From positions 4,421,865-4,485,864 of the forward strand of contig OY811985.1 of the NCBI GenBank assembly GCA_963681505.1: a DNA stretch of 64,000 nt, written 5' to 3'. Made by a program: the position numbers and the translations under genes. Below the pieces are notes generated by a model. It saw only the letters and a list, made by a program, of their open reading frames with translations. It was not told the DNA's origin and did no database searches. This document shows positions 40,884-42,194 of this stretch, in pieces; the stretch's first letter is position 1; every line of letters starts with the position of its first letter. This DNA comes from Eunapius fragilis. Taxonomy: Eukaryota; Porifera; Demospongiae; Spongillida; Spongillidae.

Positions 40884-42194
40884 TCAGTACAAAGCCATTA
40901 GATCTTCAAATGTCTGTCCTCGCCGTATTACGGACCACGCATTACCATCAACGATCACTTCGGGCGGTAGCGGCTTCATATTGTAATTGGACGCCATGGC
41001 CATGCAATAGGCTCCAGCGTCCATAACAACCAGGCCCGACCCTTCGGCGGGAGTGGGCAGTTTCCTGTCCTTGCCAAGGAAGTCGGCGCTCTCACACACT
41101 GGACCAACAACGTCAAAGCTTTTGTCATCGTGGCTCACGCCGGGTTCGATAAGGGTGATGACGTGGTACGCCCCATAAAGGGCGGGGCGAATCAGTTCCG
41201 TCATCGAGCCGTCGACGACGATGAAATTTTTCCCGCCGTTGCTCTTGACTCCAGTGACGCTGCACACTAGCACGCAGGCGTTCCCAACTATGGAGCGACC
41301 TGGTTCGATAATGATCGTTAATTTCGCTTCTTCCAACTGCGACCGTATGGAGTTGACGAGGTCTGTCGGCGTTGGGATAGGAGCCCCAGTGTGTTCGTAG
41401 TCAATACCAAGCCCTCCGCCGATGTTCAGATAACGCATTGTGTCAAACCCGAGCTCACGGATCCGTTTCACGAAACCTACCATAATTTCGGCGGCATCCT
41501 TAAACACGCCCACGTTCTTAATGGTGGATCCCAAGTGAGAGTGGACCCCCACGAGTTGAACTAAAGGCTCCTGTCTGATACGGTCCAAAAACCACGTCAA
41601 GTGATCGTTACGTATACCGAACTTTGAGCTGGCGAGGCCAGTGGAGACGTACGGGTGCACCTGAGGGTCGAGATTTGGGTTGATTCGGATTAGCACGGAG
41701 ACGGTTTTGCCAGTGTTCGTCGCTGCCGATATAATGTGCTCTAAGTCGAACTCCGAGTCCACGTTTACTAGGCAGCCACATTGCACGGCAAACGTAAGGT
41801 CCTGCAGAGTCTTTCCGTTTCCGTTAAATACTATTCGGGCTGGATCGAATCCCGCTCGGAGCGCAAGACGAAGCTCGTTTCCGCTTACAACGACTGCTCC
41901 ACTTCCGTATTCCCGAAGCAGTGTAAGCAGGTGCAAGTTATTATTGGCCTTGATGGCGTAACCAATTACCGAATCAAGTCCTTCAAGTGCTCTGGCATAG
42001 GAATCGTAGTTGCGCTTTATTTGGAGTTTGGAATACAGGAAAAATGGCGTACGGCGGAGTGCTTCTTGAACGTCCTTCACCCGCAAATCCTCGCAGTATA
42101 AATATTCGTCATTACGGACTTTGAACGTTGAAAAATTCTGCTCGAATAAGGACAAACGAACACTATCACCGTGTTCTTCGCTCGTTCGCGCCAT
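40884..42194 (-). CDS. lysA: Diaminopimelate decarboxylase
   Basis: Converts meso-2,6-diaminopimelate to L-lysine with PLP, the last step of the DAP pathway (EC 4.1.1.20). I take [10 protein letters not shown] as start (436 residues); in-frame ATG 42236 would add 14. Fold III PLP enzyme features are complete: the PLP lysine K82 in [15 protein letters not shown] (218-223), the phosphate-binding [17 protein letters not shown], and the second-subunit signature [12 protein letters not shown] with Cys367-Glu368, then [12 protein letters not shown]. The sequence resembles plant/algal and some bacterial LysA types. There is no clear transit or signal peptide. The frame is intact, intronless and more GC-rich than its flanks. 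It lies on the same strand just downstream of the DAPP1-like gene. Animals normally lack this pathway, so transfer from a bacterium or alga is the likely origin (inference); contamination is argued against by the eukaryotic flanks. Confidence 0.93.

Follow-up and report, generated by a model that had tools for sequence, protein, structure and literature searches.

An intact diaminopimelate decarboxylase gene of the plant and Poribacteria type in the genome of the sponge Eunapius fragilis

Introduction

Lysine is an essential amino acid for animals, which cannot make it themselves. An uninterrupted gene for meso-diaminopimelate decarboxylase (LysA)—an enzyme that requires meso-diaminopimelate (meso-DAP) and PLP—within the genome of the sponge Eunapius fragilis hence raises the question of whether the gene belongs to the animal, where it came from, and what it might do there.

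An earlier note on this DNA started from the premise that the DAP route is not known from animals. This is too strong, as transferred bacterial-type lysA genes are reported from the genomes of whitefly and mealybug (PMC4607527), and a DAP decarboxylase is listed as transferred in Anthozoa, where it is assigned to chlorophyll-c algae (PMC4878875, Table 1). The anthozoan entry resembles the present case in that a LysA is reported to have entered an early-branching animal group. It sits uneasily with an octocoral study, which reports the enzyme in symbiont-derived transcripts and its absence from the host-derived transcripts described there (PMC5976621). Transferred lysA genes of animals are therefore already known; what is special here is the combination of a subfamily shared with Poribacteria and four other pathway enzymes that were not detected.

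Among sponges, Amphimedon is annotated as a lysine auxotroph (PMC4412061). None of the titles or abstract openings among the matches listed names a sponge nuclear lysA, and the word "diaminopimelate" is absent from the main texts of a paper on prokaryotic genes in Amphimedon (PMC4784904) and of a compendium of metazoan gene transfers (PMC13342648). Given that orthologues in sponges and cnidarians are stated for choanoflagellate amino-acid transfer candidates (PMC7971027), supplementary data may already list a lysA from a sponge.

The whole stretch of DNA that was analysed—hereafter the window—comprises 64 kb (C15:4421865-4485864). Feature positions within it are collected in Table 1.

Table 1. 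Position of lysA and of the neighbouring features within the window
Feature	Position	Strand	Remarks
lysA CDS, meso-diaminopimelate decarboxylase	40884..42194	-	ATG at 42194, giving 436 aa; single open frame
Possible in-frame N-terminal extension	42195..42236	-	upstream ATG at 42236
DAPP1-like PH-domain exon, nearest upstream neighbour	42917..43007	-	PH match under Pfam cut-off; ends by eye
Second DAPP1-like exon	43153..43232	-	peptide used in DAPP1 match; ends approximate, by eye
Stretch with four WEE1-like kinase exons	50733..53930	-	frames 53649-53930, 53379-53645, 52851-53102 and 50733-51002
Dispersed host repeat, ~180 bp	40511..40691		193 bp beyond lysA stop

The lysA gene and its product

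The open frame that holds lysA (40884-42359, minus strand) runs without interruption over 491 amino acids from stop to stop. The encoded protein reaches 423.6 bits against the LysA equivalog TIGR01048 (cut-off 297.9, E 6e-127) and carries both Pfam decarboxylase domains, i.e., the PLP-binding domain and the C-terminal sheet domain. It keeps 42 of the 43 columns that are invariant among 17 other LysA proteins—with F52 in place of Y as the one exception. Residues K82, E297, G299, R300, C367, E368, and Y396 are among those kept, and these include the PLP lysine and the active-site C–E pair. What the earlier note had described as an intact LysA with its active-site residues in one frame is thus borne out.

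The closest proteins of solved structure in a phmmer search are DAPDC1 and DAPDC2 of Arabidopsis (1.7e-164 and 3.2e-162). A structure prediction computed from the protein together with 17 bacterial and archaeal relatives displays a mean pLDDT of 87.4 and a pTM of 0.87, with residues 1–21 of the 436-aa form falling below 50. The top Foldseek match of this model is again an Arabidopsis enzyme (6n2f, TM 0.93, rmsd 1.3). The plant enzymes (6n2a, 6n2f) thus share fold and LysA clade with the sponge protein, at 60.1% identity. The stretch 40884-42194 encodes an intact LysA of the DAPDC fold, for which sequence and structure model predict decarboxylation of meso-DAP.

A closer comparison is possible within a set of seven plant-type LysA proteins. 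Here, the sponge protein differs at 16 of the 171 columns that are invariant in the remaining proteins, the corresponding counts being 12/167 for Arabidopsis, 3–5 of 158–160 for four Poribacteria rows, and 21/176 for L041, a locus with a Chloroflexi title.

Genomic setting

The genome comprises 218,937,333 bases in 24 contigs. On C15, which spans 7,181,414 bases, lysA lies near base 4.46 million and hence in the contig interior; the window contains no N letters. The gene is found close to spliced animal-type exons, as the earlier note had claimed: a DAPP1-like exon lies ~0.72 kb from the lysA start, WEE1-like exons follow, and all of them share the minus strand with lysA. Peptides of the two adjoining exons find their best match in the dual adaptor DAPP1, namely its PH domain (1fao, 1.4e-5), and peptides from the four frames ~8.5–12 kb upstream of lysA find theirs in WEE1 (4e-46). 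Taken singly, the PH frame and two matching kinase frames score below the Pfam cut-offs, and the rest of the frames scanned (all but 53379-53645) give no hit.

On the other side, the ~180-bp repeat beyond the lysA stop recurs, whole or in part, at least 41 times elsewhere in the genome (77–94% identity, 40 of 60 candidates scored). The 5' flank of lysA gave no further match in the genome save for its far, repeat-like part (query 373–466). Repeat, DAPP1-like exon, contig interior, and the lack of N letters together place lysA within host DNA. A scan for bacterial promoters and terminators was uninformative (4 sites versus 3.5 expected and 4 versus 2.4).

Several other frames were seen in the window. 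At 39185-40234 on the plus strand, 0.65 kb beyond the lysA stop and opposite to it, a frame of 253 aa lacking any Pfam hit precedes one with a PHD finger (3.5e-6), in a CpG-poor stretch. Farther away lie a transposon-like 533-aa frame whose match to reverse transcriptase stays below cut-off (33348-34946, plus), a repetitive stretch that leaves multiple overlapping frames open in both orientations (36496-37803), and a 608-aa frame with a subtilase match (58393-60216, minus; 1.1e-16, CpG o/e 0.59).

Relatives and phylogeny

Exact short peptides were used to scan 84,980 genomes of bacteria and archaea, a procedure that can miss relatives; of the 156 stretches obtained, 121 are relatives. The best 80 of these 121 divide into 40 with Poribacteria titles (57–64% identity), the Chloroflexi-titled L041 (59%), and 39 others at 29–37%. 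The names Poribacteria group and Chloroflexi group are taken from the titles of L005 and L041, respectively, and denote the phylum group to which each of these loci belongs. Within the 84 genomes of the Poribacteria group, 69 hold a plant-type LysA (57–64%), 12 an ordinary one (34–41%), and three none at 1e-60. Carriers of the plant type include L005, L006, and L038, with L154–L158 as contrasting cases from the same phylum group; this split suggests a replacement within the group. In a draw of 400 genomes of the Chloroflexi group, one plant-type LysA (59%) stands beside 51 matches at 34–42%, and 348 genomes have none at 1e-60. The distribution of this subfamily is odd: in the bacteria searched it occurs in the Poribacteria group—bacteria associated with sponges as symbionts—and in one Chloroflexi-titled genome, and yet it is the form found in plants. 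Two scans of viral contigs found no relative. A plasmid scan gave 353 matching records, all below 60% identity, with 37.7–39.9% for the eight matches listed.

Across the 41 rows made up of the 40 Poribacteria loci and L041, identity to the sponge protein ranges from 56.9 to 63.8% (median 62.0%); for Arabidopsis against the same rows the median is 63.0%. Together with the 60.1% between the sponge protein and Arabidopsis, all three pairings thus lie at almost the same identity.

Two trees were calculated. The first comprises 60 rows, including 16 of the 40 Poribacteria loci, and the second 44 rows, including 15 Poribacteria, L041, 18 LysA from the Chloroflexi group, and, from the Poribacteria group, 5 of its 12 ordinary LysA. 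Arabidopsis is the sole other eukaryote in either—algae, choanoflagellates, corals, and other sponges being left out—and both trees were flagged for long branches and for rows of odd letter make-up. In both, the sponge gene, Arabidopsis, Poribacteria, and L041 form one clade on a long stem with a support of 100/100. Inside this clade the sponge gene branches outside a weakly supported pair of Arabidopsis and Poribacteria (88/68 and 88/73), and L041 lies outside all others (99/92 and 90/71). Poribacteria as a single clade reach a support of 73/19. In the best trees, the sponge gene is neither inside Poribacteria nor their sister, although joining it with Arabidopsis, Poribacteria, or L041 is not rejected either (p-AU 0.401, 0.178, and 0.328). 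Hence, the gene can be assigned to the subfamily with confidence, but not to a donor.

A chlorophyll-c algal donor, as given for corals, is disfavoured by the weak match of the one sequence compared, that of the diatom Phaeodactylum (7jpj), which is distant from the sponge protein (94.8 bits versus 550.7 for Arabidopsis). All in all, lysA was probably transferred horizontally into the sponge lineage.

Lysine pathway and peptidoglycan enzymes

If LysA were one step of a lysine pathway in the host, further enzymes should accompany it, and the earlier note considered that part of the pathway might be present. The genome was searched with profiles exon by exon, a reading that can miss split genes. 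It gave no match for the dapA family (PF00701), dapB (PF05173), dapF (PF01678), or the dapL family (TIGR03540; two candidates scored, none at 0.001). Neither the presence of part of the pathway nor, specifically, that of dapF and dapL, which the earlier note had named for checking, therefore found support in this exon-by-exon search, from which split genes can escape. A full DAP pathway in the host is disfavoured by the same four blanks.

With the decarboxylase family, the search returned lysA and a single further gene, split into three pieces on C9 (E down to 7.4e-27), which appears to be ODC-like. NlpC/P60 and Amidase_2, two common peptidoglycan-cutting domains, were absent from a genome search that covered these two domains and left lysozymes and other hydrolases outside.

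Plant DAPDC, by comparison, is a chloroplast enzyme that belongs to a complete lysine pathway. The sponge gene differs from its plant counterpart in this respect, as the four other families looked for are without a match in its genome.

A proposed role in DAP salvage

As the exon-by-exon search detected no upstream step (dapA, dapB, dapF, or dapL), the host would depend on bacteria for the substrate, which makes the salvage of ready-made meso-DAP the mechanism that fits best. Digested or symbiotic bacteria would release meso-DAP from their cell wall, or symbionts would leak it; LysA with PLP would decarboxylate it to L-lysine and CO2 in the host cell; and the animal might thereby obtain an essential amino acid. 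We consider it moderately probable that the gene is a horizontally acquired LysA of the plant and Poribacteria type, residing in an animal nuclear chromosome, that works alone in salvaging meso-DAP. Transfer, expression, substrate, and a supply of free meso-DAP are the parts of this reading that we infer. From the earlier suggestion of a transferred gene with a new use, it is the real LysA in an animal-type chromosome that stands as observed; transfer is probable, and DAP salvage is the best reading of its use.

Several observations count against salvage. The search for NlpC/P60 and Amidase_2, neither of which was found, brought up no route to free meso-DAP. The blank result for the DHDPS family makes the sensitivity of the pathway search to split genes doubtful. 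In addition, the sponge protein departs from the plant-type invariant columns more often than do Poribacteria and Arabidopsis, and less often than L041.

A parallel for salvage is found outside animals. Regular trypanosomatids are reported to need lysine, to accept DAP in its place, and to possess the decarboxylase; most of them have the last step alone, as may be the case for the sponge, and one also has dapF (PMC3846528). Their LysA is a protist gene with Actinobacteria as the reported sister group (PMC3846528), and thus a different one.

A more specific and rather doubtful version is that lysA moved between the host and a Poribacteria symbiont, and that the host harvests DAP from the peptidoglycan of this symbiont for lysine. 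Poribacteria such as those of L005 and L006 carry the best bacterial relatives found, at 57–64% identity and from the same clade; these are bacterial genes, and the animal gene lies outside them in the best trees, with a common clade not rejected.

Alternative explanations

The strongest of the alternatives, though unlikely in itself, is a shared pathway in which symbionts carry the synthesis as far as meso-DAP and the host completes it, with no recycling of dead cell walls. Such a division of labour is described for whitefly bacteriocytes, where lysA and dapF of the insect make up for genes that the symbiont lacks (PMC4607527). In the sponge Xestospongia muta, transcripts of the lysine pathway are reported as solely prokaryotic, with Poribacteria among their sources (PMC4412061)—a count in which a host lysA of the present type could have been taken for prokaryotic. 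However, 81 of the 84 Poribacteria-group genomes encode LysA themselves (at 1e-60). The whitefly gene also differs from the present one, as it groups with Planctomycetes and is accompanied by dapB and dapF (PMC4607527).

Less likely than a shared pathway is inheritance from a unicellular holozoan ancestor followed by loss in most animals. Choanoflagellates are reported to possess genes of the DAP pathway that stem from algae or bacteria (PMC4046809, PMC7971027), and orthologues in sponges and cnidarians are stated for amino-acid transfer candidates of Salpingoeca rosetta, in a statement that leaves lysA unnamed (PMC7971027). Against such an inheritance, lysA of S. rosetta is given as lysAC, joined with aspartate kinase (PMC7971027), and dapA, dapB, dapF, and dapL gave no match in the exon-by-exon search of the sponge genome.

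That further DAP-pathway genes escaped detection because introns split them, and that the host thus produces lysine wholly or in part on its own, is very unlikely. The exon-by-exon reading leaves room for this, and the search left out dapD, dapE, ddh, lysC, and asd. Even the wide DHDPS family came up empty, and since animals usually have relatives from that family, the sensitivity for split genes is doubtful. On the other hand, the split decarboxylase relative on C9 was caught in three pieces, and four families (dapA, dapB, dapF, and dapL) gave no match.

Still less probable is a decarboxylase with a changed substrate—D-ornithine or D-lysine, for example—and no role in lysine supply. Relatives of the same fold do use substrates of this type. 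Yet the D-Orn/Lys decarboxylase model gives the sponge protein 171.6 bits against a cut-off of 700, far from its standing with the LysA model, and the LysA-invariant residues are kept.

That lysA might be a recent, unexpressed passenger which is intact by chance, a reading to which we give very little credence, is suggested by its composition. Its CpG o/e of 1.26 exceeds the 95th percentile of 1311-bp tiles of the window (1.09; median 0.44). NCG makes up 27 of 88 codons considered, and CGN encodes 22 of 25 arginines; in the split host gene on C9, whose three pieces include two with a stop, the counts are 3/48 and 2/10, respectively. CpG content and codon usage are thus unlike those of the surroundings. 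But the window contains further CpG-rich patches, along with two CpG-rich open frames (CpG o/e 1.05 and 1.18), and CpG can hence not date lysA; a recent transfer read from CpG was dropped for this reason. Moreover, the best relative among the matches listed is 64% identical, which argues against a passenger of recent arrival. As for the two frames themselves, the first (7218-8195, plus; 326 aa, CpG o/e 1.05) bears a ubiquitin domain at 64-133 (8.7e-14), its remainder being without a Pfam match. The second (10123-11013, plus; 297 aa, CpG o/e 1.18) matches DUF1749 (4.9e-46), a relative of the alpha/beta hydrolases, and is possibly another acquired or lineage-restricted gene.

Least probable of all is an assembly artefact or a contaminating symbiont contig: the closest relatives detected among bacteria belong to Poribacteria, which are sponge symbionts, but lysA lies in the interior of a 7.18 Mb contig with a host repeat 193 bp and a DAPP1-like exon 0.7 kb away and no N in between, and the best bacterial identity is 64% among the matches listed.

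Conclusions

Should the salvage reading hold, a single transferred enzyme would let an animal draw lysine from the meso-DAP of bacteria, which would mark a very small genetic step toward living on bacteria or symbionts.
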